Made by a program: the position numbers and the translations under genes
In this document: piece by piece, positions 807 to 46,301 of the stretch
Position numbering within the stretch: the stretch's first letter is position 1
Layout: each line of letters starts with the position of its first letter
Assembly: GCA_021739625.1 (NCBI GenBank)
Contig: JAIPBJ010000012.1
Coordinates: 1 to 61,170, forward strand
Direction of reading: 5' to 3'
Source of the DNA: Flavobacteriales bacterium
GTDB lineage: Bacteria > Bacteroidota > Bacteroidia > UBA10329
DNA: 61,170 nt
The notes under the pieces: generated by a model
The model's input: the letters and a program-made list of their open reading frames with translations, nothing else
Told to the model about the DNA's origin: nothing
Database searches by the model: none

Positions 807-1865
807 TCAGTCGAAATCCGGAACCATCACGCTCCGCTTCGAATACTTGTGGTCCAGCGTGTTGCGGAACACTTCGTTGATGCTGCCCATGGGGAATGTC
901 TGCACGAAATCTCCGATCTCCAGTTTTCCTGTGGCGATAAGGTCAACGACCTCGGGGTAGAGTTCGGGCTTGCAGCCCCAGGTTCCGATGAGCTTGGCAT
1001 CGAAGGCCATGAGGTTGCTCAGGCGCACTTCCACCTTGTCCATCGTGAAGCCCACGATGCTGACCGTGGAGGTGAAGGTGAGCAGTCCGAAAGCCGTCTC
1101 CTGACCCGCTGCGGTGCCAGAGAATTCAAAGATCTTCCAGCCGTAGGTGGGCGCACCGAGTTCTTTGGCCAGATCACGCACTTTGGCTTTCAGATCGCGG
1201 AAATCAAGTCCCTTGGTGTTCACCACCGCATCTACGCCATTCTTCTTGGCCGAGGCCAGTTTCTCATCGCTGATGTCGAGGGCGATGACCTTCGCACCCA
1301 TTATCTTGGCTATGAGCGCGCCATAGACCCCGACACCGCCCACCCCGATAACTATGGCAAGGTCGCCCGCCTCCAGTTCAGATTTCCGCAGCACCTGATA
1401 GGGTGTGGAGATGGCATCGGCAATCACTGACAGTTCCTCCAGCCTGTATTTTGCAAGCACACTGTCGGGCACCGGGCACAGGTATCTGTGTGGCACCTTG
1501 ATGTGCGATGCGAATCCACCATGGAAATCGTTGCCGGGCATCAGCTGGTGCTGGCAGATGTTGCTGCGGCCCTTCTTGCACAGGTCGCATTCTCCACAGG
1601 GCAGCACTGCCGGAACGATGACCTTCCTTCCCTTCAGATGTGCAGGGCCCTGCACCACAGTTCCGCTTATCTCGTGTCCCAGTGTGAGCGGCAGTTCCAT
1701 CTTGGTCTTCACACCATGGTGCCAATAGCTGATGTCGGTATGGCACACGCCACATCCGGCCACTTTCACCAGTGCCTCATGGTCACCGACCTGTGGCATC
1801 TCCGTCTCCACCAGCTCGAAAGGTGCATGTGGGGCGGTCATCCTGTACTGTCTCATCTTCTCCAT
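807..1865 (-). CDS. had: 6-hydroxycyclohex-1-ene-1-carbonyl-CoA dehydrogenase
   Basis: Zinc-dependent alcohol dehydrogenase of 352 residues, close to the usual length of Had. Visible: the catalytic zinc motif CGVCHTDISYW (about residue 38), GHEISG, the structural-zinc cysteines CGECDLCKKGRSNIC (about 90-104) and a Rossmann GVGGVG (about 175). The family oxidises 6-hydroxycyclohexenecarbonyl-CoA with NAD to the 6-oxo compound that Oah cleaves. The specific call rests on its place directly upstream of oah in a bcr operon; by motifs alone it is only a medium-chain alcohol dehydrogenase. A start nine bases downstream is also possible. Confidence 0.88.
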   Translation of the reverse strand: MEKMRQYRMTAPHAPFELVETEMPQVGDHEALVKVAGCGVCHTDISYWHHGVKTKMELPLTLGHEISGTVVQGPAHLKGRKVIVPAVLPCGECDLCKKGRSNICQHQLMPGNDFHGGFASHIKVPHRYLCPVPDSVLAKYRLEELSVIADAISTPYQVLRKSELEAGDLAIVIGVGGVGVYGALIAKIMGAKVIALDISDEKLASAKKNGVDAVVNTKGLDFRDLKAKVRDLAKELGAPTYGWKIFEFSGTAAGQETAFGLLTFTSTVSIVGFTMDKVEVRLSNLMAFDAKLIGTWGCKPELYPEVVDLIATGKLEIGDFVQTFPMGSINEVFRNTLDHKYSKRSVMVPDFD

Positions 1866-1902: not shown

Positions 1903-3174
1903 TCATAGAGCGGTGTTCTCAAACAGGATGGCCGTGCCCTGCCCGCCACCGATACAGGCCGAGGCGATGCCATACCTCACCCCACGGGCCTTCATTTCAC
2001 GTGAAATGGTGAGCGAAAGGCGAGCACCGGTCGCGGCCAGAGGATGCCCCAACGCTATGGCACCACCGTTCACATTGCAGATGTTGCGGTCGAGGCCAAG
2101 CTCGCGCTCGCAACCTATGAACTGGGCCGCAAATGCCTCGTTGATCTCGATGAGGCCGATGTCGGCCAAGGTCAGTCCCGCCATTTCCAGCACCAGACGT
2201 ATGGCGGGCACAGGCCCCAGGCCCATCACATGCGGGTCGATCGCGCTGGTGGCCGAAGCGACCACGCGCGACAAGGGCTTCAGTCCTCTATCTGTGAGAA
2301 AATCGCTGTGCGCCACAATGACCGATGCTGCTCCATCCACGATGCCGCTTGAGTTGGCCGCGGTCTGCACCCCGTCCTTGGCAAACACCGGAGGCAGTTT
2401 GGCCAAAGTGGCCAGGTCTGAGGAACGTACATTCTCATCAGTGTTGAAATCGACCGCTTTCGTATTCAGTTTCACTTTCCTTGGGCTGAGACCCTCGGCC
2501 TCGAACACTGTGGAGTTCATCTTCACCACCTCATCATCATAAAAACCGCGTGCCTTTGCTGCGAGATAATTGTCCACAGACCGTTTGGCGAAGATGTCCG
2601 CCTCTTCTTTGGTGATGCCGTGCTTCTTGGCCACGTTCTCGGCCGTGCAGCCCATTGGCACCGCAGCGGTGTCGTTGAGCGCCTCCCACAGCATGTCCTT
2701 GAAGTCGATACGGCCCAGCGCATAGCCCATGCGGTTGCCGAAGCTGACCGTGGGCGAAAGGGTCATGTTGTCGGTGCCTCCGCACAGGGTGGCACGGGCC
2801 TTTCCCAATGCGATCTGTTCAGCCCCGGCAATGATGGTCTCGAATCCGCTGCCGCAGATGCGTTGCAGCATCACCGCAGGAACTCCCTTTGGGATGCCAG
2901 AATACAGCCCGATGTGTCTGGGCAGGAAGTATGCATCGGCCGAGCTCTGCCCGATGTTGGCATACATCACCTGGTCTATGTCATCGCCCTTCATCCCCGA
3001 ATTTGCCAATGCCGCCCTGCTGGCATAGATGCCCAGATCGGTGGGCGACACCGCCCCCAATGTGCCGCACAGTTTGCCGAATGGCGTTCGGGCACCGTTC
3101 ACCAGATAGATGTCATCGTAGCTGATGCCTATTCCCTTTTCCTTATTGAAATATCCTTTCATCGTTGCTGTCAT
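1903..3174 (-). CDS. Thiolase (acetyl-CoA acyltransferase), probable 3-oxopimelyl-CoA thiolase
   Basis: Thiolase of 423 residues with the nucleophilic Cys in RICGSGFE (about residue 105), the GHPLAATGAR histidine motif and the C-terminal CIGGGQG cysteine. It overlaps the preceding dehydrogenase/hydratase gene by 4 bp (ATGA), so the two are probably translationally coupled. Thiolases cleave 3-oxoacyl-CoA with CoA. In this operon the natural substrate would be 3-oxopimelyl-CoA, giving glutaryl-CoA and acetyl-CoA; that is inferred from context. The N-terminus carries about 20 residues before the conserved thiolase start (VNGARTPFGK). Confidence 0.9.
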   Translation of the reverse strand: MTATMKGYFNKEKGIGISYDDIYLVNGARTPFGKLCGTLGAVSPTDLGIYASRAALANSGMKGDDIDQVMYANIGQSSADAYFLPRHIGLYSGIPKGVPAVMLQRICGSGFETIIAGAEQIALGKARATLCGGTDNMTLSPTVSFGNRMGYALGRIDFKDMLWEALNDTAAVPMGCTAENVAKKHGITKEEADIFAKRSVDNYLAAKARGFYDDEVVKMNSTVFEAEGLSPRKVKLNTKAVDFNTDENVRSSDLATLAKLPPVFAKDGVQTAANSSGIVDGAASVIVAHSDFLTDRGLKPLSRVVASATSAIDPHVMGLGPVPAIRLVLEMAGLTLADIGLIEINEAFAAQFIGCERELGLDRNICNVNGGAIALGHPLAATGARLSLTISREMKARGVRYGIASACIGGGQGTAILFENTAL

Positions 3175-5189
3175 CTGTGTATGAAATCGGCCTTTGCCTT
3201 CGCCCCGTTCTTCTTGAAATTCTCCAATCCGATGTGCATGTCCTCAGAGAGCACGCATTCTCCGAACAGCCTCGATTCCAGCTCCAATGCCTCCTTCAGC
3301 GGCAGCCTGATGCCTTCATAGATCGCCCTGTTCAGGATGTCATCGATCTTTTTGCTGAGGTGGCCGATGTTCAGATCCTTGGGCTGAGGCACGTTTTCAG
3401 AACCACCTTTCATCCATTCGCGTGGCTTTGCTTCTCCTTTCACCAGTTTCTTCGCGAAATCGACCGCTTCTGAAATGAGGTCTCCTTCAGCTTCCATATC
3501 GATCAGTCCAATCTCCAGCGCCTCTTTTGCAGAAACGGTGCGGGCTGTGCGCAATATCTCAGCGGCAACATCAACCCCCACCAAACGTGGCAATCGCTGC
3601 GTGCCGCCCGAACCCGGTATGAAGCCCAGATTGACCTCGGGCTGGCAGGCCACCACTGGCAGTCCTTTCTTGGCGATGCGCGCGGTGCAGGTGATGGCCA
3701 GTTCGTTGCCGCCCCCGAATGCGAAACCGTTCAGGGCGCATACGGTAGGCTTCTTGCACCGCTCGATGGTGTTTATCAGCTCTTGGAACGTATGCGAGTT
3801 CTCATAGCCCTCGTCAGGGGTCTGCAGTGCCGCCAGCATGTTGATGTCGGCTCCCGAAACGAATGCCTTTGTGCCGAAACCCGTGATGACGATGCCTTGC
3901 ACCGAAGGGTCGGTCTCGGCCCTTCCGATCTCATCTTTCAGTTCGGTCAGCACTTCGAGATTCAGTGCGTTGAGCACCTTCGGTCGCCTGATGGTGAGCA
4001 CCGCGATGCTGTCCTGTTTCCGGGCAACGATGCGCGAGATCTTCCAGCCGCCCTCGGTCTTGGCCTTGTCCAATGATGCAGGGAATGGGAAATCGGTGTG
4101 CTCATCGCACCATTCGCGTACCAGAGTATGGGCCTTGCCGATGCCCAGTCGGTTCATCATGGTGAACGGGGCACCGATGACCAGGGCTATCTCGGTGGCC
4201 ATGTCCAGATCGTTGACATTGGTGATGCCACGGTCGATGATGTAGGAACAGAGTGCGAAATAGCCTCCAAGGAACTGTTTCCTAATCACCTCGGCCTTTT
4301 CGGACGGGACATCCACCACCTCGCCACGTTTGGCCGTGTCCCATTTCCCTTTCTGGGCCACCATCTCCTGTAGGGCCTTTGGAGAGCGGAACCATGCGAT
4401 GTGGGTCTTGCGCATCTCCTCCAGCCCGTGGTCGGTAATGGGATTTCCGCCAGTGAGGTTAAGTGCGGTGAAAGGCCCCACACCCTGTTTCAGCGTTTTT
4501 TGAGCAACTGCGTCTATCTCTTTGATGGTTCCATAGCCCTTTTCCAGACACAGGATCGCCAGTTCGCACAGACCCTCGAAGATGGGGTCTATGGCATAGC
4601 CGTAGGAGCTGCCCACTTCAATCGGCACTTTCCCGATGGCCTCATAGAAACTCATCAGGTCGGCCGTTGTCCGGCTGTCGGTGTCCTTGCCGGGCACCAG
4701 CTCCACAATGGGGTTGCGTTCGGCAGGGAAGAAATAGTGTGCCACCAGACACCGGCCCTTGTTGCCGATGTTGCGGAATATGACCTCGGGCTGCATGTGG
4801 GATGAGTTGGACAGATAGATGCAGCTTTCGTCTGTAAGCTGCTCAACCTGCTTGAAGATCCTGTCCTTGATGTCCCCATCCTCGGTGGCGGCCTCCACTA
4901 CCAGATCTGTTCCTTCTATGGCCGAGTAATCTGTGGTGTAGGCGATGCAGTTGCGGATAGCCTCGGCCGCCTGTGGTTTGAAGGAACCTGTTTCCTCGCC
5001 CTGCGCCACCTTCTTTTCGATCTTGGCCTTGGCCGTGTTCAAGGCCTCCTGCGAAATATCCACAAGAACCAGCTTCACATTGTCCTTCCAGAATGTCTTG
5101 GCGAAATGGAGGCAGATGTCCGGGCCGATCTGTCCGGCCCCTATCACGGAGAGTTTTCGGATCTCCAGTCCTCTGTGTTTGAATGCCAT
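3171..5189 (-). CDS. Fused 3-hydroxyacyl-CoA dehydrogenase / enoyl-CoA hydratase
   Basis: Two-domain protein of 672 residues. Residues about 1-390 are the NAD-dependent 3-hydroxyacyl-CoA dehydrogenase (IGAGQIG at 17-23, catalytic His in VAHYFFPAERNP, two helical C-terminal domains). Residues about 405-600 are a crotonase (GFGTKAFVSGADI and FAFGGGNELA form the oxyanion hole). The order dehydrogenase-then-hydratase is the reverse of FadJ/FadB and is found in archaeal and some anaerobic-degrader enzymes. Here it would oxidise the Oah product 3-hydroxypimelyl-CoA to 3-oxopimelyl-CoA, and the hydratase half could interconvert the 2,3-enoyl ester. It abuts the upstream gene with a 1-bp overlap and the thiolase with a 4-bp overlap. 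Confidence 0.9.
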   Translation of the reverse strand: MAFKHRGLEIRKLSVIGAGQIGPDICLHFAKTFWKDNVKLVLVDISQEALNTAKAKIEKKVAQGEETGSFKPQAAEAIRNCIAYTTDYSAIEGTDLVVEAATEDGDIKDRIFKQVEQLTDESCIYLSNSSHMQPEVIFRNIGNKGRCLVAHYFFPAERNPIVELVPGKDTDSRTTADLMSFYEAIGKVPIEVGSSYGYAIDPIFEGLCELAILCLEKGYGTIKEIDAVAQKTLKQGVGPFTALNLTGGNPITDHGLEEMRKTHIAWFRSPKALQEMVAQKGKWDTAKRGEVVDVPSEKAEVIRKQFLGGYFALCSYIIDRGITNVNDLDMATEIALVIGAPFTMMNRLGIGKAHTLVREWCDEHTDFPFPASLDKAKTEGGWKISRIVARKQDSIAVLTIRRPKVLNALNLEVLTELKDEIGRAETDPSVQGIVITGFGTKAFVSGADINMLAALQTPDEGYENSHTFQELINTIERCKKPTVCALNGFAFGGGNELAITCTARIAKKGLPVVACQPEVNLGFIPGSGGTQRLPRLVGVDVAAEILRTARTVSAKEALEIGLIDMEAEGDLISEAVDFAKKLVKGEAKPREWMKGGSENVPQPKDLNIGHLSKKIDDILNRAIYEGIRLPLKEALELESRLFGECVLSEDMHIGLENFKKNGAKAKADFIHR

Positions 5190-7051
5190 TATCGTATGCT
5201 ATTGATTGATGCTTTCTCTCTGGGCAATGGTGCCCCGTCCTTGTGCAGTTTCTCCTCTGCCTGACGGGCAATGAGGGCCGCCCCGTGCGATACCGCGAAC
5301 TGCGGGGCATCTGCCACCGTCATCTCCAGTCGGAACTTGTCGCTCAGCAGATTGCCAAGATATGGATGATGGGCTATCACCCCACCGACCATCACAGTGG
5401 GCATGCCCGGTTCTATGCGCATCTTGGCGATGCGGTTGCCGATGGAGATGTAGATGCCGCGTGCAATGTCGCGCGGGGTCATGCCGTCCATTATCCAGTT
5501 CATGATCTCGGTCTTGGCAAACACGGTGCAGAAGCTGTTCAGCTCCTTGTCATAGTCCGAGTGGGCCGCCAGACTGCTCATCTCAGTGATGCTGATGCCT
5601 GCCCTTTCAGCTATCTCGGTGAGGAACGATCCGGTGCCGGCCGCACATTTGTCGTTCATATAGAAATTGGCAACCTGCCCGTCCGCATCGCAGTGGATCA
5701 CCTTGATGTCCTCGCCCCCGATGTCGATGATGTTCTTCTCGCCAGGAAAATACTTGGACACGGCTGCCGCTGCGCAGATGATCTCTGTCTTGGCCATGTC
5801 TGCCCCGCTGAAGACCTTTCTTCCATAGCCCGTGGCGCAGCTTCGTCTGATGTCGAAGTCGGCACTTATGGCCTTGAGCATGTTGTCCAAGGCGTGGCGG
5901 TCGCCTCCCACCGTTGGCAGCGCATATCTGGCCACCGGCTCGCCAGCTCCGTCAGTCACGGTGAACTTGGTGTGGGCCGAACCGAGGTCTATGCCCAGGT
6001 AGCAGGGCTGACCGCGATAGTTCGAGGGTGATGTTCCTTTGGTCACCATGCCTTTGGCAAGGATCTTCCTGTTCACATCGCCCATCGTGCCGGGCATGCG
6101 CGAGAGCACGTTCTTGCTGGTCATGGCCTTCACCATGTTGGTCATGGCCAGGTTCAACGAGGTGCGCACATAATGCTTACGTCCATATTCCACGATCTTG
6201 CCGTTGAAATAGTCGATCTCGGTAGGTCGGTTGTTGATAAGATCGACCGCCAGCGATGGGAAGTGGTCCCCTCCTTTTTTGAGATAGCGCATGCATTGAC
6301 GCAGAAAGTCATCGGGGAATCTGATCTTCTCGGCCTCGGCCACATCGATTCCCTCCTTGATGATCTGTTCTATCAGTTCCACAGTGTCAGGATCGGTCAT
6401 CGCTTCTTCCATCGTCAGTCTGCTGACCCCGCACAGCGGGCTGAGCGATGCATTGAGAATGGTCTTCTCCCATGCCCGTTTCACCAGTTCAAATGAATCG
6501 ACCGCCTTGGTCTCCAGATTCACCGAACTGAGCAGGGCGGCCAGTTCTGTGGCCCTGCCAGTGGCAGTGTCATTGATTGATGCCAGATAGTTCGGGGCGT
6601 TGAAGAAGGTGACCCTGGTGGCATTCGGAGCGGTGGTGTTGCCTGCAAAGTTGATCACCAGCCGCAGGGTCTTGCTTTCTCCGAATCCGGCCACCAGCAA
6701 TTGCTCCACATCGATCCCGTTCTGGGCCGACACCACTGTGAGTTTCTCGGTGTTCAACACCTCGGCCTGTTTCACCGCATGGGCCGTGTGGTTCGACTTG
6801 AGGGCGAAGAAGAGATAGTCCGCATCCCAGTCTTCGAGTTCGGCAATGGAGCTGCACACCATGCCGAATCTCGCATGGGCCGTTATCACGTTCTGAAGTT
6901 CGAGGCCCTCAGTCCTTATCATGTCGGCCTTGGTGGTGTTAGCCTCGCACAGGGCCACCTCGCAGCCGGCCTCCTGCAGTTTCACAGCAAGGATCATTCC
7001 CACAGGGCCGAGGCCGATGACCGCCACTTTTATGCTGTTGCTCCTGCTCAT
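5189..7051 (-). CDS. Ketopantoate-reductase-type (ApbA/PanE) domain fused to BcrAD/HgdC-type ATPase activase
   Basis: Fusion of 620 residues. Residues about 1-320 look like ApbA/PanE 2-ketoacid reductase: GLGPVG dinucleotide motif, AWEKTILNASLSPL and the C-terminal NNRPTEIDYFNGKIVEYG motif. From about residue 349 a complete acyl-CoA dehydratase/reductase activase follows: GIDLGSAHTK phosphate loop, DIGGEDIKV, KCAAGTG (Cys near 467) and SFCTVFAKTE (Cys near 507). Those two cysteines hold the bridging [4Fe-4S] cluster in this family. It lies 3 bp after the HgdB-like gene, its likely redox partner. No known benzoyl-CoA pathway protein has this architecture to my knowledge. The reading frame is continuous across the junction. 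Confidence 0.85.
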   Translation of the reverse strand: MSRSNSIKVAVIGLGPVGMILAVKLQEAGCEVALCEANTTKADMIRTEGLELQNVITAHARFGMVCSSIAELEDWDADYLFFALKSNHTAHAVKQAEVLNTEKLTVVSAQNGIDVEQLLVAGFGESKTLRLVINFAGNTTAPNATRVTFFNAPNYLASINDTATGRATELAALLSSVNLETKAVDSFELVKRAWEKTILNASLSPLCGVSRLTMEEAMTDPDTVELIEQIIKEGIDVAEAEKIRFPDDFLRQCMRYLKKGGDHFPSLAVDLINNRPTEIDYFNGKIVEYGRKHYVRTSLNLAMTNMVKAMTSKNVLSRMPGTMGDVNRKILAKGMVTKGTSPSNYRGQPCYLGIDLGSAHTKFTVTDGAGEPVARYALPTVGGDRHALDNMLKAISADFDIRRSCATGYGRKVFSGADMAKTEIICAAAAVSKYFPGEKNIIDIGGEDIKVIHCDADGQVANFYMNDKCAAGTGSFLTEIAERAGISITEMSSLAAHSDYDKELNSFCTVFAKTEIMNWIMDGMTPRDIARGIYISIGNRIAKMRIEPGMPTVMVGGVIAHHPYLGNLLSDKFRLEMTVADAPQFAVSHGAALIARQAEEKLHKDGAPLPREKASINSIR

Positions 7052-7054: not shown

Positions 7055-8278
7055 CTAATAGGTGGTTCTGACATCTTCCAACTGTTCAAGAAAGGTCTCG
7101 ATCTTGGTGATGCTCTGTCCTTCTGAGAAGAAACGGAGGTCGCACAGGTCGCCCTCGATCACCAGCGATGGCACTCCGGTCTCTTTCGATAGCCGCTGTG
7201 GCATCCCGAATTTGGCGTTCGAGTTGTTGAAACAGGTCTTGGAGTCGTGATACACGATGCCATCTATCCGATACTCATCGAACCATGCCTTCAGCATTTT
7301 CATCTTGGCCTTTTCGCTGCGGTTGATGAAAATCTCGGTGTAGGCGCGTGCAGTGCTGTTCCACGGGTCGTTCTCATCGAATTGGTCGAACACCCAACTG
7401 CTGCAATAGGTGGATGCCACCACGGCCGCATTGTTGGCTGCGAAGAGGTCGCTCATCATGCGCAGTTTGCCCCAGATGGGCATTCCTTCCCAAAAGATGC
7501 GCTTGGTGGCATTGGGTAGAAATCCGCGACCGTTGGCCACATTGTCCTCCAGTTCGGCCAACAGTTCGGTGTAGTAGTCCTTGGCCACCTGCGTTCCACG
7601 CAGCACCACAATAGGGCCCATGTGGATGGTGCCGTCAAAGAAGCTGATGGGCGCATTCATGGCCGTGGAGGTCTTCAGCACTTTCTGCCAGAGAAGGGTG
7701 GCCTCTCTGCTCAGCCTTATCACGTCCTTGAAACGGTCGATGTCGAATTTCTGCCTGCTTGCCAGTTCCAATGCAGGTATCATCTTCTTGAACTGCCTCA
7801 CCACCAGTTCCACCTCGTCCTCGGTCACCTCGTCCAGATGTCTGGGCGGCTGAATGCCTACAATGGGGCAATTGAAATGGTCTGCATAGAAGGTGAACCA
7901 GTCCTCCACCTCGCGGCATTGGTTGGTGTTGTAGGCGATGAGGTCGGGCCGTGGTGCGCCTTTCAGCCCGTAATGCTTCTGCAAGGGGGTCTCATTTCTG
8001 AGGAACGAGCCGATGTCGGCAGTCGTGTAGGAGCACACATGGCCCGAATAGCCACATTTCACAGCCTCTGGAATATGGTCCATCGCGGTGCGCGTGGCAC
8101 CGAGCAGTGCCCCGTGATTCTCTGGGAAATAGACCTCGAAACCAAAGGAGCGCAGCAGTTCGGCCGGGCCGACACTGGTACACCATGCAATCTTCTTTTC
8201 GCCCGTTCCCAGACCTTTGAAGTAGTCGCCCATCACCTCCTTCATCAGGTCGGTGGTCCGGATCCTGTAGTCGCTCAT
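7055..8278 (-). CDS. 2-hydroxyacyl-CoA dehydratase / benzoyl-CoA reductase-like subunit (HgdB family), third copy
   Basis: Protein of 407 residues of the HgdB/BcrB/BcrC family. Recognisable are the N-terminal IAWCTSVGPAELLRSFG, the cysteine-rich GYSGHVCSYT, TNQCREVEDWF, a central STYCSSWVF and C-terminal KTCFNNSNAKFGM with EGDLCDLRFF. These cysteines resemble [4Fe-4S] ligands of the family. The operon already has both catalytic subunits BcrB and BcrC, so this copy is an extra one and is not paired with a second subunit in the window. It sits between the acyl-CoA synthetase (4-bp overlap) and the reductase/activase fusion (3-bp gap). A second dehydratase or reductase acting on a non-aromatic acyl-CoA is possible; the substrate is unknown. 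Confidence 0.82.
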   Translation of the reverse strand: MSDYRIRTTDLMKEVMGDYFKGLGTGEKKIAWCTSVGPAELLRSFGFEVYFPENHGALLGATRTAMDHIPEAVKCGYSGHVCSYTTADIGSFLRNETPLQKHYGLKGAPRPDLIAYNTNQCREVEDWFTFYADHFNCPIVGIQPPRHLDEVTEDEVELVVRQFKKMIPALELASRQKFDIDRFKDVIRLSREATLLWQKVLKTSTAMNAPISFFDGTIHMGPIVVLRGTQVAKDYYTELLAELEDNVANGRGFLPNATKRIFWEGMPIWGKLRMMSDLFAANNAAVVASTYCSSWVFDQFDENDPWNSTARAYTEIFINRSEKAKMKMLKAWFDEYRIDGIVYHDSKTCFNNSNAKFGMPQRLSKETGVPSLVIEGDLCDLRFFSEGQSITKIETFLEQLEDVRTTY

Positions 8279-10017
8279 CGGGTCGTCCTGTTTCTGATGG
8301 ATTCATCAAGGTTGATGATATAGACCTCCTCATCCAGCGGAACATCGGCACCGTAGAGGTTGAGCAGATGGGAGCGGTATTTTTCGACCACGTTCTTCGG
8401 TGCCACTTTCATGGACGGGGTCAGCGTGCGGTCGTCCAACGACAGTTCGCCATTGATGACCATTGCGCACTTGATCTTGGCGAATTTCTGTTTGATGTCG
8501 CCATTCGCATCGTGCAGGCAGCCTCTCAGGCATCTTCCCAGTTCATTCAGACTGCGCGGACAGAAGCAGCCTTCCTCAGGGGTCACCTCATAGTTGGGGT
8601 TGGTGAGCATTTTTCTGTTGGGGAAGATCAGCGCTACCGGATGTTCCTCGCCACTGCCCGACACTATGGCATATTGAACATAGTGGCAATGTTTCTCTAT
8701 CTGCTGTTCGAGGTCGGTGGGAACCACCTTTTCGCCATTCGACAGCTTGAAGATGCGGTCCTTCCGTGATATGAGTCTGAGCCCGTTGTCGGTGATCTCT
8801 CCCACGTCACCTGTGCGATACCAGCCATCGTCAGTGAATGCGTCCCTGTTGGCCTCATCGTTGTTGAAGTAGCTGCGCATCACGTTGGGGCCTTTCACCT
8901 GAATCTCATCGCCATCTGCAATTCTGATCTCGACACCGGGAATGGGAAGGCCCACTACGCCTGTCTGTCTGGGCAGCGCAGGGTCGGTGAGGGTGCAGCA
9001 GGGCGAGGTCTCGGTGAGGCCCCATCCTTCTATGACCGGTATGTTGCGCTTCTCAAATTCGTTGGAAAGGCGCTCGGGCAATGCGGCCGCTGCGGTGAAT
9101 ATGAATTTGAGTCCGGAGTTGAAAAAGCGGTCTTCCGCCTCCTTGTTCCCGGCCGTCAGTTCCACCAGGGCCTGATAGACCTTGGGAACACTGAAGAAGA
9201 TGGTCGGACGCACGGTCTTCCAGTTGTCCATGATGGACACCGGATCCTTCCCATAACTGCTTTCAAGCGAGTAGGTGGCTCCGTGATACAGCGCTGTGAA
9301 AAGCTCGAAGATGCCCCCGAAACTGTGATGCCATGGCAGGTAGGCCAGCAGGCGGTCGTTCTCGTTCACACTCCATACCGCATCCAGCGCGGCCTGCTGC
9401 GACAGTATGTTGCGGTGCATGAGCTGCACGCACTTGGGGATTCCCATGGTGCCAGAAGTGTACATGTTGAGGCACAGGTCATCGGGGCTCATATCAAAGT
9501 CCAATGCCCTTTCCGCGTCACGGTGCCCTTTGATGAGCCGGTCAAAGGGAATCACCTGCGGATACCGTTCGGCATCCACCGGCTCAAGTGCGAAAATGTG
9601 ATCGATCCGGTCGTGCCTGCCTATATTGTGCAGTTGATGCTCTCCGGCCACAACAAGGAACCGGGCCTCCGAATGGTTGATGAGCAGATCGGCCGTGTCC
9701 TGCTTGAAGTAGGCGAAAATGGGCACGGCTATTCCACCGGATGCCATCACGGCCAGCTCTGTTTCAAGCATCCGCTGGCTGTTCTGTGAGAAGAACACCA
9801 CCTTGTCGCCCTTCTCCAGCCCGTGGTCCCTGAGATTGGCCGCAATGTTCTGCACGTGCCGATAGAACTCCTTCCAGGTCACTCCCTCATATTCACCATT
9901 CTTCCCTTTCTCCTGATAGACGGTACTGCTACCGAACTTCCCGGCATTCGTGCGCAGCAGCACAGCGATGTTCCTGACTATGGGGCCTATGGCTATTGTG
10001 GGGCGGAGCTCTTTCAT
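8275..10017 (-). CDS. AMP-forming acyl-CoA synthetase (long-chain-type ligase)
   Basis: ANL-superfamily enzyme of 580 residues. Motifs: phosphate loop MYTSGTMGIPK, GWGLTETSP, DDGWYRTGDVG and LISRKDRIFKLSNGEKV. The unmatched feature is Met in place of the usual Thr after SGT in the P-loop. The ATG at 10017 is preferred because an upstream in-frame start would overlap the end of bcrD. It would activate a carboxylate to its CoA thioester with ATP. In a benzoyl-CoA operon the acid may be benzoate, a benzoate derivative or a dicarboxylate, but the sequence looks more like FadD-type long-chain ligases than benzoate-CoA ligase, so substrate is left open. Confidence 0.88.
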   Translation of the reverse strand: MKELRPTIAIGPIVRNIAVLLRTNAGKFGSSTVYQEKGKNGEYEGVTWKEFYRHVQNIAANLRDHGLEKGDKVVFFSQNSQRMLETELAVMASGGIAVPIFAYFKQDTADLLINHSEARFLVVAGEHQLHNIGRHDRIDHIFALEPVDAERYPQVIPFDRLIKGHRDAERALDFDMSPDDLCLNMYTSGTMGIPKCVQLMHRNILSQQAALDAVWSVNENDRLLAYLPWHHSFGGIFELFTALYHGATYSLESSYGKDPVSIMDNWKTVRPTIFFSVPKVYQALVELTAGNKEAEDRFFNSGLKFIFTAAAALPERLSNEFEKRNIPVIEGWGLTETSPCCTLTDPALPRQTGVVGLPIPGVEIRIADGDEIQVKGPNVMRSYFNNDEANRDAFTDDGWYRTGDVGEITDNGLRLISRKDRIFKLSNGEKVVPTDLEQQIEKHCHYVQYAIVSGSGEEHPVALIFPNRKMLTNPNYEVTPEEGCFCPRSLNELGRCLRGCLHDANGDIKQKFAKIKCAMVINGELSLDDRTLTPSMKVAPKNVVEKYRSHLLNLYGADVPLDEEVYIINLDESIRNRTTR

Positions 10018-10027
10018 GGTCAACGGT

Positions 10028-10885
10028 TCAGGCAACGACAGCAGCTTCCTTCTCCTTAAGTATGTAGTAGCGGTATCCGCCCCACAGTGCAGCCCCGATA
10101 GCTCCGGAATAGATGGCATCGGGGCTGGAGATGAACTCGAACTTGGTCTTTGAGCTTTCTGCGGTCAGTTCCTCCACGGCCTGGATCATGCCAACGTTCA
10201 TGCCCATGCCTCCGCACAGGACGATTGGCGATTCGGCCCTGAGCGATCCCAGCAGTTTCACGATCCTGTTGGCTATGGACAGGTTGATGCCTTTGACGAT
10301 GTTGGGTGTGGACAGTCCTTTCGAGACGAGATTGATCACGTCCGTCTCGGCCAGCACGGCACAGATGCCCGATGGTGTCTCGGGGTGGTCGGCCTGGAGC
10401 GAGATGGCCCCGACCTCCTCCACGGCAAGTCCCAGATAGCGCGAAATGTTCTCGATGAACTGGCCCGACCCGGAGGCACACTGCCCGGTCATCTTGTAGT
10501 CCACCACGCGGCCCTGTTCGTTCACCTTGATGGCGCGCACATAGAGCGCGCCCATGTCAACAATGGTGTTGGCGTGCGGGGTGAAGAACCTGCCACCGCG
10601 CGCGTGCGAGGTCATGCTGTAGAAGTGGCCTGTTTTGCGCTCCACCATCTCGCCCTCTCCTGTCGAGGCCATGTAGGCGATGTCCTTCTCATAGTTGAGG
10701 TTGTTGCGGCTCAGCAGCAGCTCCACCATCTCTGCGGCCACATCCTTCGGGTTGCGCTTGCGGATCTTCTCGGTCTGCTTGTCAACGATGCGGTGATCGC
10801 CCGATTCGCGGTCGTAGCTCATGATGACGCCTTTGATGTAGCTCCCGCCAACATCGACCCCCATGGTGTATATCGTATTGCTCAT
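10028..10885 (-). CDS. bcrD: Benzoyl-CoA reductase, ATPase subunit D
   Basis: Protein of 285 residues of the BcrAD/BadFG family, typical length for BcrD/BadG. It has the phosphate loop MGVDVGGSYIKGVI, VDMGALYVRAI, TGQCASGSG (Cys near 133) and GICAVLAETDV (Cys near 174); in the holoenzyme these cysteines help bind the [4Fe-4S] cluster shared with BcrA. ATP hydrolysis by the A/D module drives electron transfer from ferredoxin to the active-site B/C module. The gene follows bcrA with a 23-bp gap. The order C-B-A-D is that of Thauera and Rhodopseudomonas. Confidence 0.93.
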   Translation of the reverse strand: MSNTIYTMGVDVGGSYIKGVIMSYDRESGDHRIVDKQTEKIRKRNPKDVAAEMVELLLSRNNLNYEKDIAYMASTGEGEMVERKTGHFYSMTSHARGGRFFTPHANTIVDMGALYVRAIKVNEQGRVVDYKMTGQCASGSGQFIENISRYLGLAVEEVGAISLQADHPETPSGICAVLAETDVINLVSKGLSTPNIVKGINLSIANRIVKLLGSLRAESPIVLCGGMGMNVGMIQAVEELTAESSKTKFEFISSPDAIYSGAIGAALWGGYRYYILKEKEAAVVA

Positions 10886-10908: not shown

Positions 10909-12324
10909 TCAGGCGGTCTCCGTCTGTTTGGTCGGTTCGGGCAGGTGGGCCGCAATGTTGCGTCTGGCGAACATGGCCCCGCCAAGTGCTCCCATGAATA
11001 TGGAGTCGGTGTGAATGTTCATCGTCACATCCCCATACGCGTCCTTGACCATCTGGCTCACATATTTGAGCACCGCCTGATTGCGCGCCACTCCGCCCGT
11101 GAAGGTGAACTCGTTCCTCACCCCTCCGGACCGGGCTATGAGCGACATGGCCCGCTGCACGATTGCCTTGTGCAGACCTGCGAGGATGTTGGGCCGCTTC
11201 TCTCCGTTGTTGAGCAGTTCTCGCACCTCTGCGCCTGCAAACACGGTGCAGGTCGAGCAGATGGTGGTCTCCTTGTCGGCCTGCATGGCCTCGGGCCCCA
11301 ATTCGTTGAGCGAGATGCTGAACTCATCGGCTATGTAGCCCAGATAGCGCCCGCATCCTGCCGCACAGCGGTCGTTCATGTGAAAACTGGTCACCAGACC
11401 GTGGCTGTCCACCTGAATGGCCTTGGTGTCCTGACCCCCGATGTCCAGCACCGTGCGCGTGTTGGGGAATACCGCATGGGCCCCGAAAGCGTGGCACAGT
11501 ATCTCAGATTTGATGCAGTCCTCTGGGAATGGCAGCAATGCACGGCCATATCCCGTACCCACCATGTTCGAGATGTGGATGTCGTCCGATGCGATGGAGT
11601 CGATATGCTCGCGTAGCGTCAATTCCACATTCTTGTAGTTGTCCTTCACTGCGTTCAGCTCGGCATAGTACCAGTCTTCCTTGTTCTCCTCCAAAGGTCT
11701 TTCTGCCAGACCTCTGTATTTCTCCTCCAGCACCTGCATCGACTCGTCCACCAGTTCCTTGAAGTTGAACTTCACCATTTCGTTCTCCACCGGGGTGATG
11801 CTCTTGTCGAAAGCCAGCATCAGCGGCTCGAAAAACTCCTTGTGCGATTCTGCCACCATCACGTTGTAGCGCTCGCTCACGATGTCTCTGAAGAACTGAT
11901 TCTTGGAACCCAGGTCCTCATTGACGAATTCATGCCTTATCTGCGGCATGATGGTGCTGAGGATCTCGTCCAGTTTGGCAATGATCAGATCCCTGTTGTC
12001 ATACTGGAATTCTGACACCGTCTTTTTCAGCATCCTCTCCAGACTGTCCATCCTCCTTTTGAACTGGCGGTATTGGAAAACCGAACGGATGTCCTCCATG
12101 TAGCGCCTGAACTCCGGCTTGGCATCGATCTCGGCCTTCAGCCTGTTGGTCAGCAGGGTGAACCTTGCATCGTAGATGGCCTCTTCGCGGGCTATGTCGG
12201 CCGCCACCTTGTAGTTGGCCCGGGTGTTGGTGATGCCTCTTCCGATGATCTCATCCCTGTCGTTGATGATCACCGCCTTGGAGGTGGTCGATCCCAGATC
12301 TATGCCCAGATAGTACTTGTTCAT
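10909..12324 (-). CDS. bcrA: Benzoyl-CoA reductase, ATPase subunit A
   Basis: Subunit of 471 residues. The start at 12324 (MNKYYLGIDLGSTTSK) places the ATPase loop at the very N-terminus as in homologues; a longer in-frame start would overlap bcrB. A helical insert of about 170 residues (roughly 60-230) separates the two ATPase lobes, as is usual for BcrA/BadF compared with BcrD. Further motifs are DIGGQDTKAI, DRCAAGCGRYLG (Cys near 316) and CSTCTVFAGAEV (near 358) for the iron-sulfur cluster. At 471 residues it seems somewhat longer than the about 440 I remember for Thauera BcrA. Confidence 0.93.
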   Translation of the reverse strand: MNKYYLGIDLGSTTSKAVIINDRDEIIGRGITNTRANYKVAADIAREEAIYDARFTLLTNRLKAEIDAKPEFRRYMEDIRSVFQYRQFKRRMDSLERMLKKTVSEFQYDNRDLIIAKLDEILSTIMPQIRHEFVNEDLGSKNQFFRDIVSERYNVMVAESHKEFFEPLMLAFDKSITPVENEMVKFNFKELVDESMQVLEEKYRGLAERPLEENKEDWYYAELNAVKDNYKNVELTLREHIDSIASDDIHISNMVGTGYGRALLPFPEDCIKSEILCHAFGAHAVFPNTRTVLDIGGQDTKAIQVDSHGLVTSFHMNDRCAAGCGRYLGYIADEFSISLNELGPEAMQADKETTICSTCTVFAGAEVRELLNNGEKRPNILAGLHKAIVQRAMSLIARSGGVRNEFTFTGGVARNQAVLKYVSQMVKDAYGDVTMNIHTDSIFMGALGGAMFARRNIAAHLPEPTKQTETA

Positions 12325-12343
12325 TTTCAGTCCTTGTTTGTGA

Positions 12344-13642
12344 TTAAGCCTCCACTTCCTTGATGTCCGCACCGATCACCCTGCGCTGATCCAGCATTTG
12401 GAAATAGGATTCCAGTCTGTTCTTGATGTTGGAGTAGGAGAAGTACCGGGGATCCACCAGATCGGACTCGATGAACCCGACCGGAACCTCCAACCTGTCC
12501 TCTATCTCGCGCATCATGGCCAGCTGTCCGGCCGAGAACGAGTTGCAGCTCTTGATGGAGTTGGTGAGATAGCCATCGGCCTGATAGTCCTTGATGCATT
12601 TGGACAGCAGGTCTATGCGCTGTGGGATGTTCATGTTGGTATAGCAGTTCATGCAATACTCGGCCAGCGCTTCCAACGGTCTTTCGGGGTCGTGCCTCCA
12701 ACCGTTGTCATACACTCCGCCCACCTTGGTGTAGGACGATGCCACGATCACTGCGCCCATGTCATAGAATATCTTCCAGAACTCCCTGAAATTGGTCCAG
12801 TTGGGCGGTCCTTCCACCACCAGCCTGAACTTCTCCTCCTTCATCTCGCCCTCGGGAGTGATGGGGCCGAGGCCCTTCGCCACCCGCTCCATGATCTCTT
12901 TATAGAGCTCTTTGTAATAGTCCACAGCTTCCTGTGTGCCCCTGAAACCGATGTTGATGGGGCCGATGTAATAGACGCCAGCGAAATAGGCATCGATGGG
13001 CGAGGGCCTGTGTTTTGTGGTGTCGAATATCCTGGTGATCCAATCCTCGGCCTCGGCCGACAGCGTGAGGTGGCGCTTCAGCTTGGCCTCGTCATATTTG
13101 ATGCCCGTGACTTCCTCCAGTTTCGGGATGACCACCTCCTTGAACTGCTTGACCATGTATTGCGTCATCTCGGGTGTGATCTCGCTGTTCTCCTGATAGG
13201 GTGTGTGAACCATGATGACCTTCGCGTTCGGATACTCACGTTTGAGGGTCTCGAACCATTTCATGAAGGTGAAACAGCCCGTGTAGCTCAGCAGGAGCAC
13301 ATCGGGCTCGGGAATCTTCTCTCCGGTCGGGCCGATGTTCCCTTTGAGCATCATGCCCACATCGCATTTCACATAGGTGCATACGTCCTCCGAGTGCGCA
13401 TGCTTCTCGGCCTCTTTGATGTAGCCGCCCGACTTCTTGCGCATGGCGCTCTGCAGCGCATTGATCTCCGGATAGACCGGAAGCATGTCGAATGTTCTGA
13501 TCAGCTCGGACAGATTGCCCGGAATGAACGTGTAGCAGACCTTCTTGCCGGTCTCCTTGGCTCTCGCCAGTTCGTTGAAAAGATCGCTGACCATCTCCTT
13601 CTGGATGATCATGCTCATTTCCTTCTGTGCTTCTTGTGCCAT
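12344..13642 (-). CDS. bcrB: Benzoyl-CoA reductase, catalytic subunit B
   Basis: HgdB-family protein of 432 residues, the usual size for BcrB/BadE. Cysteine-bearing segments include EDVCTYVKCDVGMML, SYTGCFTFMKW, AEYCMNCYTNM and IKSCNSFSAGQ. In class I enzymes BcrB and BcrC hold two [4Fe-4S] clusters and the benzoyl-CoA site, where the ring is reduced to cyclohexa-1,5-diene-1-carbonyl-CoA. It lies 15 bp after bcrC and 19 bp before bcrA. A second ATG nine codons in (MSMIIQ) is an alternative start. Confidence 0.93.
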   Translation of the reverse strand: MAQEAQKEMSMIIQKEMVSDLFNELARAKETGKKVCYTFIPGNLSELIRTFDMLPVYPEINALQSAMRKKSGGYIKEAEKHAHSEDVCTYVKCDVGMMLKGNIGPTGEKIPEPDVLLLSYTGCFTFMKWFETLKREYPNAKVIMVHTPYQENSEITPEMTQYMVKQFKEVVIPKLEEVTGIKYDEAKLKRHLTLSAEAEDWITRIFDTTKHRPSPIDAYFAGVYYIGPINIGFRGTQEAVDYYKELYKEIMERVAKGLGPITPEGEMKEEKFRLVVEGPPNWTNFREFWKIFYDMGAVIVASSYTKVGGVYDNGWRHDPERPLEALAEYCMNCYTNMNIPQRIDLLSKCIKDYQADGYLTNSIKSCNSFSAGQLAMMREIEDRLEVPVGFIESDLVDPRYFSYSNIKNRLESYFQMLDQRRVIGADIKEVEA

Positions 13643-13657: not shown

Positions 13658-14848
13658 TTATGCGTTGATGGTTACTACAGGCTCATCCTCCCACAGTTTG
13701 ATGGAATCCGAGAAGGTGCCCACCTGCTCCTTGATCACCTTGAACTGGTTGATGTTCTCACTGTACTGGAAGGCGATATAGCGGATGCCCATCTTGTTGA
13801 AGGCGTTCTGGAATATCGGAGCGTCCAGCAGGCTGGGGTCGCAGAAGCTTGCCGAAGCGAAGATCACCCCGTCAGCCCCGCGGTCCTTCACTATCTTGGC
13901 CAAGCGGAACTCTTTCGGATTGCTCACATCATAGATGCAGGACGAGTAGCGGCTCTGATTGATGTAGGCCGTGGAGATCGCCTCCAATGGCCTGTCGGTG
14001 GTCGTGTCAATGTCGCCCTCTATCATGCGCGATCCCAGCATGTAGTCGTCATCCACCACATAGCACCCGGCCTGTTCAATGGCCCGGATCAGCCCCACCG
14101 CAGGCTGCTCGCAGAATGCCCCCGACACCACGATCTTGATCTTGTCCTGCGGAACCCCGATGGGCTTGGCAATATGCGCACACACCTGCTCCAGCAACGC
14201 ATTGTGCTCCTCCACCGGAATCACCATCCCGGCCCTGATGATGTGATAGACATCCTCGATCGAGAGTCTCCAAGGAAAGTCCTGACGGATGTCGTAGATG
14301 AACTCGATCATCTGGCGGTTCCTATTATACAGACCTATGGAGTGGTTGAGCCGCTCAGGGGTCACCTCAACCCCGTTGATCTCCTTGATGTAGCGGAGCA
14401 CATGTTCCATCTCCTGCTGATAGAACACCCCACCTATCTCGGGCAGGAAGTTCTGTGGGAAGTCCATGTACTTCACAAACTTCCCGATCTTCTGCTGCTT
14501 GAAAATGCCCGACAGATTGCGGATCACATCGCAGATGGAAGGGAAGATGTAGCCATCAAAATGCTCCGTATGTCCGTCCAGCACAAGTTCCAGAATACTC
14601 CTCGGAATGTGGCAGATGTAGCTCTGATAATAGGCGTCACCTTTGATGATCTGCTTGCGGTCGCCTCCGCCCATGATGCCCACTGCCAGCCCATTGGCCG
14701 CATGGATGATCTCCCTTGGGAAGTATATCGGCATATACCCGACAACGACCCTTCCTTCCTGCTCGGCCTTCCATTCCTTTGCCCGCGTAAAATGCAGGTC
14801 GAAGGCCAGTTCCTTGCATTCATTCACAATCTGCTCAAGCGATTTCAT
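13658..14848 (-). CDS. bcrC: Benzoyl-CoA reductase, catalytic subunit C
   Basis: HgdB-family protein of 396 residues beginning MKSLEQIVNECKEL, as in BcrC/BadD. Typical segments are VGYMPIYFPREIIHAANG, IFPSICDVIRNLSG, VVSGAFCEQP and IFASASFCDPSLLD, which carry cluster-ligand-like cysteines. It is the first recognisable gene of the operon. The ATG at 14848 was chosen over a TTG 11 codons upstream because family members start here and no Shine-Dalgarno site favours the TTG. A short open frame ends 29 bp upstream. Confidence 0.93.
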   Translation of the reverse strand: MKSLEQIVNECKELAFDLHFTRAKEWKAEQEGRVVVGYMPIYFPREIIHAANGLAVGIMGGGDRKQIIKGDAYYQSYICHIPRSILELVLDGHTEHFDGYIFPSICDVIRNLSGIFKQQKIGKFVKYMDFPQNFLPEIGGVFYQQEMEHVLRYIKEINGVEVTPERLNHSIGLYNRNRQMIEFIYDIRQDFPWRLSIEDVYHIIRAGMVIPVEEHNALLEQVCAHIAKPIGVPQDKIKIVVSGAFCEQPAVGLIRAIEQAGCYVVDDDYMLGSRMIEGDIDTTTDRPLEAISTAYINQSRYSSCIYDVSNPKEFRLAKIVKDRGADGVIFASASFCDPSLLDAPIFQNAFNKMGIRYIAFQYSENINQFKVIKEQVGTFSDSIKLWEDEPVVTINA

Positions 14849-14877
14849 CGTATGTCCTTGGTTTTGATTCCGAACGG

Positions 14878-14991
14878 TCAATTCTTTTCTGGGCCATCTT
14901 CCATCAGTGCACCATGCAGCGATCGTTGGCCACCCGGGCGGTCGATGCCCTTGGCCAGCGGTGCAGAAACAGGGTGGTCGTATGAACCCAT
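14878..14991 (-). CDS. Possible 37-residue leader ORF of the bcr operon
   Basis: An ATG at 14991 opens 37 codons that end 29 bp before bcrC, on the same strand. The third codon positions are moderately G/C-rich, as in the neighbouring genes, and the peptide is rich in Gly, Pro and Asp with no hydrophobic or cysteine-rich segment. I do not recognise it. It could be a small operon protein, a regulatory leader peptide, or chance. It is too short for composition to be convincing. Confidence 0.25.
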   Translation of the reverse strand: MGSYDHPVSAPLAKGIDRPGGQRSLHGALMEDGPEKN

Positions 14992-15103: not shown

Positions 15104-15276
15104 TCGAGCCACATTCTGGTCTATTATGTATTCATATAGCTGATAATGAGTTTAATGAAAGAACAATCTACAATCTTGAACGTTGATCGTCACAATGTGA
15201 AATCATCGTGCCGAAGGCGATTTTATGCTGATGTAAGTCATAGTACGTATCTGTTCAATGCCTTGCTTTGTGCAGG

Positions 15277-15897
15277 ATGAAGAAGAACGGGAACATCTGT
15301 CCGGCAAGGGTCGGAGCACTCATTCTGGCCGGTGGCGAATCGGGCCGGATGGGATTTCCTAAGCCGTGGCTGGCCTTTGATGCGCAGTCCACCTTTCTGG
15401 AGCACATTGTGGCGCTCTACAGGGCTGCCGGGGTCAGCGAAATAGTCTGTGTGATCAACGCAGCCTTCTGCGCACATCCATGGACAGGCCATGCAGACCG
15501 CATCAGGGCCGTGGCCACAGTGGTCGCGAACGACAGCCCTCACAAGGGTCGCCTTCATTCCATGGTGCTTGGGCTGGGCGCGATGCGGTCGCCCCATATC
15601 TTCGTCCATAATGTGGACAGCCCCTGGGTCGATGTTCAGGTGATCCGCGAGCTGTATGGCAACAGGTGCGAGGTCGGGGTCACAAAACCTGTCTGCATGG
15701 GCACGGCAGGCCATCCTGTGCTCATTTCCAAAGAAGTGACGGACACAATCATGGAACATTCAACGGAATCGGGAACCCTCCGCGATATTTTGCGACTTTT
15801 CGATCAGCGCTCGGTCGAGACGGCCGATAAGGGGATATTGGTGAATGTGAACACCATGGACACGTATGAGGAGCTGAAAGGTGGACATATACGGTGA
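15277..15897 (+). CDS. MobA/MocA-like nucleotidyltransferase
   Basis: Protein of 206 residues with the GT-A nucleotidyltransferase signature LILAGGESGRMGFPK near the start and VHNVDSPWVD as the metal-binding aspartate region. MobA and MocA attach GMP or CMP to molybdopterin. Because xdhC follows with a 17-bp overlap, a MocA-like role making molybdopterin-cytosine dinucleotide for a xanthine-dehydrogenase-type hydroxylase is the best guess. Other GT-A transferases, for instance for sugar nucleotides, cannot be excluded by motif alone. The ATG at 15277 is preferred to one three codons upstream. Confidence 0.75.
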   Translation: MKKNGNICPARVGALILAGGESGRMGFPKPWLAFDAQSTFLEHIVALYRAAGVSEIVCVINAAFCAHPWTGHADRIRAVATVVANDSPHKGRLHSMVLGLGAMRSPHIFVHNVDSPWVDVQVIRELYGNRCEVGVTKPVCMGTAGHPVLISKEVTDTIMEHSTESGTLRDILRLFDQRSVETADKGILVNVNTMDTYEELKGGHIR

Positions 15898-16648
15898 AAT
15901 AGCAGAATCAGGAAGGCAACCGGAGAAGGCCGCCCTGTGTGTGATAGTGCAGACCAAAGGCTCTGCACCGAGAAAGGTCGGGGCCAAAATGATCGTTTAC
16001 GAGAGTGGAAGGATCTCGGGCACCATCGGTGGAGGCGATCTGGAAAGGAAGGTGATCGAGAATGCACTGGCCCAAATTGAAAGGAACGCGCCCGAGATGT
16101 TCCGACACGACCTCCTACATCAGCACAACATGTGCTGTGGAGGAAGCGTGTACATTTATATCGAACCCATCCGCAAGATGAACAGACTCTATATTTTCGG
16201 TGCGGGCCACACAGGCAGTGCATTGGCGCAATTTGCACGGGCACTCGATTTTGACGTCTATGTGATCGATGACCGCAAGGAATACCTTGATCTCATCGTC
16301 ACCGAAGGGGTCAACAAGGTCAACATGGAGTATGGACAGATTCTGCCCTCCTTGCCTTTCAACGGGAACACCTATGTGGCCATCATGACCTACGACCATG
16401 CACACGACAGGGACATTCTGGCATACTGCATTGCACGGCCGCACGCCTATCTGGGCATGATAGGCAGCAGGCGCAAAGTGGAATTGACCAGAAAGATGTT
16501 CATCGAGGCCGGCATTGCCACCGGCCTATCGTTGGAGCAGGTGGACATGCCCATGGGGCTGAATATCGGTGCCGAGAGCCCGCACGAGATCGCCATCAGC
16601 ATCATGGCAAAACTCATTGAAGTCAAAAACAGAAAAGAACATGGGTAA
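15881..16648 (+). CDS. xdhC: XdhC/CoxI family molybdenum-hydroxylase maturation factor
   Basis: Protein of 255 residues. The N-terminal XdhC/CoxI domain has GSAPRKVGAKM and GTIGGGDLERKVIENA (about 23-60). The C-terminal Rossmann domain has LYIFGAGHTGSALAQ (about 107) and GMIGSRRKVELTRK. XdhC-type proteins bind molybdenum cofactor, promote its sulfuration and insert it into molybdenum hydroxylases. It overlaps the mobA-like gene by 17 bp and the following dehydrogenase gene by 8 bp. No hydroxylase subunits are in the window. Confidence 0.87.
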   Translation: MDIYGEIAESGRQPEKAALCVIVQTKGSAPRKVGAKMIVYESGRISGTIGGGDLERKVIENALAQIERNAPEMFRHDLLHQHNMCCGGSVYIYIEPIRKMNRLYIFGAGHTGSALAQFARALDFDVYVIDDRKEYLDLIVTEGVNKVNMEYGQILPSLPFNGNTYVAIMTYDHAHDRDILAYCIARPHAYLGMIGSRRKVELTRKMFIEAGIATGLSLEQVDMPMGLNIGAESPHEIAISIMAKLIEVKNRKEHG

Positions 16649-17375
16649 GCGCATAGCCATCGTCACCGGAGGTGCCAACGGAATAGGAAGGGCCATCGCA
16701 CAGCGATTGGTCGAAGAAGGTGTGACCACCGTCATCGTAGATGTTGACCGCGATGAAGCGATGAGGTCGGCAACAGCATTGGGCGAACGCTGCCATTATG
16801 CCCATTGCGACATCAGCAACGAGCAGGAGGTGCATGACCTGTTCGCCCGGCTTCTGGCTGCACACGGCAGCATTGACGTGGTGGTCAACAATGCCGGCAT
16901 CATCCGCGACAACATGATCTGGAAAATGCCGGCAGACGATTTTGACAAGGTCATGGACATCAACCTCAAAGGCACATGGCTCGTATGCCGCCAGGCCGCC
17001 ATCGTGATGCGTGCGCAGAAGAGCGGCCGCATAGTGAACATCGCCTCAAGGGCCTGGCTGGGCAACCGGGGCCAGTCCAACTATTCGGCCTCCAAGGCCG
17101 GTGTCATAGCGCTTACGCGTGTTCTGGCACTCGAACTCGGTCGGTCGGGCGTGCTTGTCAATGCCGTGGCCCCCGGTCTCATCGATACCCCGCTCACACA
17201 GCGGCTGCCAGAGGATGTCCGACAGAAGCTGATCATGGCGCAGCCCACCGAGACCATGGGCCGGCCCGAGGATGTGGCCAATGCCGTGGCATTCCTTTGC
17301 GATGAGCGCACTGGCTTCATCACCGGCCAGACCATCTATGTCGATGGGGGCAAGAGCATCGGAGCAGGGCTGTAG
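16641..17375 (+). CDS. Short-chain dehydrogenase/reductase (FabG/BadH-like)
   Basis: SDR of 244 residues: VTGGANGIGRA cofactor loop, VNNAGIIRDNM, the catalytic Ser in IVNIASRAW, Tyr and Lys in NYSASKAG, and GQTIYVDGGK at the C-terminus. It could be a 3-oxoacyl-ACP reductase. Its linkage to the bcr operon region also allows a hydroxyacyl-CoA dehydrogenase such as BadH (2-hydroxycyclohexanecarbonyl-CoA dehydrogenase). Sequence alone does not decide. It is coupled to xdhC by an 8-bp overlap. Confidence 0.85.
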   Translation: MGKRIAIVTGGANGIGRAIAQRLVEEGVTTVIVDVDRDEAMRSATALGERCHYAHCDISNEQEVHDLFARLLAAHGSIDVVVNNAGIIRDNMIWKMPADDFDKVMDINLKGTWLVCRQAAIVMRAQKSGRIVNIASRAWLGNRGQSNYSASKAGVIALTRVLALELGRSGVLVNAVAPGLIDTPLTQRLPEDVRQKLIMAQPTETMGRPEDVANAVAFLCDERTGFITGQTIYVDGGKSIGAGL

Positions 17376-46125: not shown

Positions 46126-46274
46126 CTGATGTCTGCCGATAGATCAACCACTCGATCAAGAGGCGGAATCGGTTATTGCGGTCGGATATCTTTTACGAAG
46201 GGAAAATTACGACCAGCCTGCGAAAAACACACTGAAATAACCTACTCTTCACATGCAATCGTCCGTTGGGCCAC

Positions 46275-46282: not shown

Positions 46283-46301
46283 TAGCCCCAATTTCGAACA
46301 G

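Follow-up and report, generated by a model that had tools for sequence, protein, structure and literature searches.

A reductase-activase fusion within benzoyl-CoA reductase gene clusters of Bacteroidota and its possible role in anaerobic aromatic breakdown

What purpose would be served by joining a 2-keto acid reductase to the activase of a radical enzyme in a single polypeptide chain? This question is raised by a gene on contig JAIPBJ010000012.1 of a Flavobacteriales bacterium (Bacteroidota; assembly GCA_021739625.1), the whole 61,170-nucleotide stretch of which was analysed here and is referred to as the window:

5189-7051, minus strand: fusion gene, with an ApbA/PanE-type 2-keto acid reductase at residues 7-313, a linker at 314-348 and an acyl-CoA dehydratase activase at 349-600

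Our study establishes that this gene is a genuine reductase-activase fusion, conserved in many environmental Bacteroidota, and that it sits in an ATP-dependent (class I) benzoyl-CoA reductase (BCR) cluster. The fusion probably feeds tyrosine- or phenylalanine-type compounds into oxygen-independent breakdown of the benzene ring. We assign a probability of about 0.5 to the reading in which it is an auxiliary enzyme with two activities in an anaerobic aromatic pathway leading from an arylpyruvate through an (R)-aryllactate and its CoA ester to cinnamoyl- or coumaroyl-CoA, then to (hydroxy)benzoyl-CoA and ring reduction.

The open reading frame spans 620 codons with no internal stop, and both halves exceed the cut-offs of their families: Pfam ApbA (residues 9-149, 65 bits against a gathering cut-off of 22.2), ApbA_C (residues 191-310, 103 bits against 22.7) and BcrAD_BadFG (residues 352-595, 129 bits against 31.5), together with NCBIfam TIGR00745 apbA_panE (162 bits against 141) and TIGR00241 CoA_E_activ (170 bits against 125). 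In the AlphaFold2 model both domains are predicted with confidence (mean pLDDT 85), and the linker between them is weak around residues 313-324. Both cluster cysteines, C469 in MNDKCAAGTG and C508 in NSFCTVFA, are present. A preliminary description, made from the sequence alone, had proposed a complete ApbA/PanE-like reductase in frame with an HgdC/BcrAD-type activase bearing both cysteines, and in this it was correct, including the ApbA identity, which held under profile search.

A scan of public data with one genome per species found 94 relatives, of which 80 loci were kept; they come chiefly from Bacteroidota, with some from Ignavibacteria and Neomarinimicrobiota, and records titled Competibacteraceae or Thermoanaerobaculia may be mis-binned. 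Most of the 80 are full-length fusions (42-73% identity), and 75 full-length sequences constitute our fusion alignment. Another 12 genomes of the class also encode the full-length fusion. Because of these orthologues, an assembly join near position 6000, which the preliminary description had named as the point to be checked, is ruled out. An assembly or annotation artefact, in whose favour we found nothing and which 75 fusions from many assemblies refute, has a negligible probability. Among Neomarinimicrobiota-type genomes, the halves are fused in L140 and are adjacent separate genes, with the same order and cluster position, in L135, L136, L137 and L139. In a tree of each half, 71 Bacteroidota-type fusions group together, with weak support in the activase-half tree, and fused and split forms are intermixed among the remainder.

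The genes around the fusion give the first indication of its role. The minus-strand order is bcrC, bcrB, bcrA, bcrD, ligase, hgdx, fusion, HCDH-ECH, thiolase and had:

13658-14881, minus strand: bcrC, BCR subunit C (TIGR02263, 423 bits, above cut-off)
12344-13642, minus strand: bcrB, BCR subunit B (TIGR02260, 662 bits, above cut-off)
10909-12372, minus strand, start probably near 12324: bcrA-like BCR activase subunit (TIGR02259, 421 bits against a cut-off of 578)
10028-10885, minus strand: bcrD-like BCR activase subunit (TIGR02261, 295 bits against a cut-off of 313)
8275-10119, minus strand: AMP-forming acyl-CoA ligase with five invariant cysteines in its C-terminal domain (profile matches and alignment)
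7055-8278, minus strand: hgdx, a lone HadB-like HGD-D subunit, predicted partner of the activase half (profile matches and conserved residues)
3171-5189, minus strand: fusion of 3-hydroxyacyl-CoA dehydrogenase and enoyl-CoA hydratase, HCDH-ECH (profile matches)
1903-3174, minus strand: thiolase, acetyl-CoA C-acyltransferase (TIGR01930)
807-1865, minus strand: had, 6-hydroxycyclohex-1-ene-1-carbonyl-CoA dehydrogenase (TIGR03201, 448 bits, above cut-off)

Many relatives carry oah (above its cut-off), dch (below its cut-off) and another HCDH-ECH gene downstream of had; our window starts just beyond had. Compared with known class I clusters (bcrCBAD, had, oah, dch), bcrB, bcrC, had and oah pass equivalog cut-offs and bcrA and bcrD fall below them, and what is added here is a ligase-hgdx-fusion module inside the cluster. 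The order of this module recurs with Thauera-type or Bzd-like ring reductases; some Neomarinimicrobiota have Bzd-like reductase genes, yet their ligase-hgdx-fusion-had core is unchanged, and the module is therefore not tied to one reductase type. The functional setting of the preliminary description, a 2-hydroxyacyl-CoA dehydration route served by both halves, thus stands, with a HadB-like gene adjoining the fusion and the halves lying side by side as separate genes elsewhere, and is now refined to a cluster for aromatic ring reduction.

Co-occurrence across genomes follows the same line. In 59 genomes of the class, the fusion and bcrA/bcrD-type genes occur together in all 13 genomes that have the fusion, and both are absent from the other 46 (Fisher p 2.5e-13, shared ancestry ignored). 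All 18 genomes that have the module encode a 4-hydroxybenzoyl-CoA reductase (4-HBCR)-like alpha subunit (805-973 bits), on the same contig in 14 of them, and none of 13 genomes without the module does, their best match reaching 292 bits (p 4.8e-9, shared ancestry again ignored). The genome of the window has its 4-HBCR-like gene on another contig (C52). Two neighbouring HcrB proteins contain a Cys-rich loop, a feature that we take to be expected of 4-HBCR.

Which substrate, then, would the reductase half accept? The marks of the ApbA/PanE superfamily are all there: the Rossmann GxGxxG motif and the equivalents of catalytic Lys176 and Glu256, Asn98 and Ser244, invariant in 75 of 75 fusions. On a PanE reference sequence checked against the PDB, residues K85, N111, K196, N200, S266 and E278 correspond to PanE K72, N98, K176, N180, S244 and E256, presumably the cofactor-binding or catalytic residues, and are likewise invariant (75/75). 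Three asparagines that we take to be on the substrate side are replaced: Asn184 by Ser (75/75), Asn194 by Met (74/75) and Asn241 by His (75/75). A plain ketopantoate reductase (PanE) was rejected on account of these three replacements, and PanE equivalog models fall far below their cut-offs for this half. Among solved sequences, D-mandelate dehydrogenases come closest, at just 22-24% identity, which indicates kinship only, and the reductase half is nearer to them in sequence than to the ketopantoate reductases suggested by the preliminary description. Foldseek and VIA-align match the model to ketopantoate reductases and D-mandelate dehydrogenases (Z up to 37-38), the first reductase match in Foldseek being the D-mandelate dehydrogenase 3wfi. 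The D-mandelate dehydrogenases (PDB 3wfi, 3wfj and 5x20; 8wl1 from Lactobacillus brevis), members of the ketopantoate reductase superfamily, have the same fold (5x20: Z 37.4, 2.3 A over 305 residues) and the same catalytic Lys, Asn, Ser and Glu, but they are unfused, and the fusion has Ser for PanE N184 and a substrate that is predicted. Because the PanE asparagines are replaced, and because of the kinship with D-mandelate dehydrogenases, of which 3wfi likewise has Met and His at the N194 and N241 positions, a hydrophobic 2-keto acid would suit this half better than ketopantoate as the substrate.

An alternative would make this half mainly regulatory, an NAD(P)H sensor gating ATP-driven electron transfer by the activase half. 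The joining of a nucleotide-binding domain to an ATP-costly, electron-injecting motor could suggest such a role; however, none of the catalytic residues compared (Lys, Glu, Asn, Ser) varies, which would be unexpected in a pure sensor, and the reductase half also occurs as a free protein, and we consider it very unlikely.

The activase half resembles known activases. Its cluster cysteines and its nucleotide motifs are invariant across the fusions, and structure searches (Foldseek, VIA-align) match it to HadI, HgdC and MbdQ/P at Z of about 27. HadI and HgdC (PDB 4eht, 1hux) share its fold at 32-33% identity, both cluster cysteines and the nucleotide motifs, but have no N-terminal reductase. Residues 443-450 include the motif GGED, with Glu447 invariant, in place of the GGQD found in HadI, HgdC and MbdQ.

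The protein that would receive the electron is hgdx, the neighbouring upstream gene of the fusion in nearly all clusters. Residues S35, E53, C82, C121 and C349, corresponding to HadB S37, E55, C84, C117 and C346, are conserved in 77 of 77 rows of the alignment; the roles of the HadB cluster cysteines, Ser37 and Glu55 are those we presume from the HadBC structure. Of the proteins with solved structures, HadB is most closely related to hgdx, which by its conserved residues looks like a dehydratase alpha subunit without its beta subunit; we would not file hgdx as a HadBC or HgdAB member, only as a protein that may work like one with the second subunit missing. It is important to consider that BcrB, BzdO and MbdO belong to the same family and that hgdx lies nearly always within a ring-reduction cluster, so that hgdx and the activase half might form a second, BCR-like reductase acting on the ring or on a dienoyl-CoA intermediate, the ApbA half performing an unrelated reduction. 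We judge this decidedly unlikely, given that the HadB Ser37 equivalent is kept in hgdx but absent from the BcrB of the window, which has Thr there, that hgdx scores 204 bits with the HadB model against 166 with the BcrB model, and that the Had/Oah branch is not known to involve a 2-keto acid. The double-cubane cluster protein and its reductase (7yyl) are another case of a single HGD-D protein with its own activase, to which the activase half aligns (Z 24.2), but hgdx matches the double_cubane model weakly (66 against 350 bits). At one locus, L138 (G093), the reductase half has no adjacent activase and is accompanied by a divergent HGD-D protein, 32% identical to hgdx, with Ala at the Ser37 position.

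The CoA ester would be made by the remaining member of the module. Conserved alignment of the ligase begins at about residue 35, placing its true start probably near 10017. Its C-terminal domain (8275-8772, minus strand) carries the five invariant cysteines, one of which is Ser in a single sequence; these cysteines are absent from the seven ordinary Bacteroidota ligases compared, and the domain model matches C-terminal domains of AMP ligases. In about 30 loci the domain is a stand-alone gene of 150 amino acids between hgdx and the fusion (for example L046:9445-9927), usually beside an ADP-forming acyl-CoA synthetase, having lost the catalytic Lys and retained the cysteines. The ADP-forming synthetase seems to replace the ligase body at these loci.

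Taken in order, the proposed pathway would run as follows. Using NAD(P)H, the N-terminal half would turn 4-hydroxyphenylpyruvate or phenylpyruvate into the corresponding (R)-2-hydroxy acid, from which the separate ligase would form the CoA ester. The C-terminal half, an ATP-driven [4Fe-4S] activase acting as a homodimer, would pass one electron into the adjacent hgdx protein, which would dehydrate (R)-aryllactyl-CoA to coumaroyl- or cinnamoyl-CoA. The beta-oxidation enzymes and thiolase would then yield 4-hydroxybenzoyl-CoA or benzoyl-CoA, to be degraded by 4-HBCR and BcrCBAD/Had/Oah/Dch. The (R)-stereochemistry common to ApbA-type enzymes and 2-hydroxyacyl-CoA dehydratases agrees with this scheme. 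Both the clostridial (R)-phenyllactate dehydratase route (FldABC with FldI) and HadBC follow the same activase-driven logic, from 2-keto acid to (R)-2-hydroxy acid, CoA ester and enoyl-CoA; here, in contrast, a ligase takes the place of the CoA-transferase, there is one HGD-D subunit instead of two, the reductase is fused to the activase, and the expected onward fate is benzoyl-CoA rather than a reduced acid.

The same two-step logic could also serve an aliphatic or branched 2-keto acid, the module being merely co-regulated with the benzoyl-CoA pathway. As a family, ApbA-type D-hydroxyacid dehydrogenases and HadBC act on branched-chain acids too, and it is HadB that stands nearest to hgdx among solved structures; the strict co-occurrence with bcr and 4-HBCR-like genes, together with the position between ligase and thiolase/had, nevertheless argues for an aromatic feed, and we regard the aliphatic substrate as rather unlikely.

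Several observations weigh against the aromatic pathway. First, the 2-hydroxyacyl-CoA dehydratases characterised so far are heterodimers of two HGD-D subunits, but BcrB, BcrC and hgdx are the only HGD-D proteins in the genome of the window and in 11 of the 12 other genomes with the fusion (the remaining one has five); a second, beta-type HGD-D gene elsewhere in the genome was not found in 12 of the 13 fusion genomes of Bacteroidota. With just these three encoded, hgdx must therefore be a homodimer or borrow BcrC, either of which is possible. Second, the near-identical bins L034 and L035 carry the fusion followed by thiolase but lack hgdx, ligase and bcr genes over the available stretch, whether through rearrangement or an assembly break. 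Third, the 805-973 bits of the 4-HBCR-like proteins lie below the curated TIGR03194 cut-off of 994.55, hence the name "4-HBCR-like". Fourth, VIA-align ranks ketopantoate reductases level with D-mandelate dehydrogenases. Fifth, the HCDH-ECH gene is not universal among module genomes, and sixth, 4-hydroxyphenylpyruvate dioxygenase occurs in most of these genomes, so an aerobic tyrosine route is already present. The notion that the module complements that aerobic route was set aside, as most genomes encode the dioxygenase whether or not they have the module, which gives no support either way.

The dehydrogenase domain of HCDH-ECH is N-terminal, the reverse of FadB/FadJ, and a second family of the same layout takes its place in other genomes. 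We had considered two separate HCDH-ECH enzymes, one for each beta-oxidation stage, and rejected this, as no such pair was found: a genome mostly has one family or the other, and in four module genomes neither gave a match. Two further regions of the window were annotated:

15268-17375, plus strand: divergent MobA/MocA-like Mo-cofactor nucleotidyltransferase, XdhC-like maturation factor and short-chain dehydrogenase
46266-51833, plus strand: 1855-amino-acid protein with a lamin tail domain and no other Pfam match at 1e-5

The MobA/MocA-like and XdhC-like genes fit the maturation of a molybdenum hydroxylase such as 4-HBCR.

As for why the two halves are joined, the substrate channelling suggested by the preliminary description found no support: split versions exist, the activase is not expected to bind the dehydratase substrate, and the ligase reaction that separates the two activities makes direct channelling improbable. 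Most simply, the fusion keeps both activities in equal amounts, and any benefit beyond such co-production would be additional. The claim that no such architecture is known survives in part: among the papers covered by our literature search, nothing was found on the fusion, nor on BCR with 2-hydroxyacyl-CoA dehydratase in Bacteroidetes, but the architecture is widespread in sequence data. Eleven papers mention BCR together with Bacteroidota, and a phenylpyruvate to cinnamoyl-CoA to benzoyl-CoA scheme has been drawn for benzene degradation in a different organism (PMC13416013, 2026).

These results show a conserved bcr cluster in many Bacteroidota and in Neomarinimicrobiota that is extended by a further module; the fusion within it suggests that reduction of the keto acid and dehydration by a radical mechanism are steps of a single route. 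Tentatively, and with some doubt, we propose for both phyla an oxygen-independent tyrosine/phenylalanine route comprising a single-subunit aryllactyl-CoA dehydratase (homodimeric or BcrC-sharing), the reductase-activase fusion and the Cys-rich ligase domain, which would feed 4-HBCR and BCR. Most knowledge of BCR pathways comes from Proteobacteria and a small number of other lineages; if the proposal is true, bacteria that are common in the environment would couple the breakdown of aromatic amino acids to reduction of the benzene ring, a dehydratase built from a single type of subunit would be predicted, and proteins likely labelled just 'ketopantoate reductase' or 'activase' would gain a testable function.

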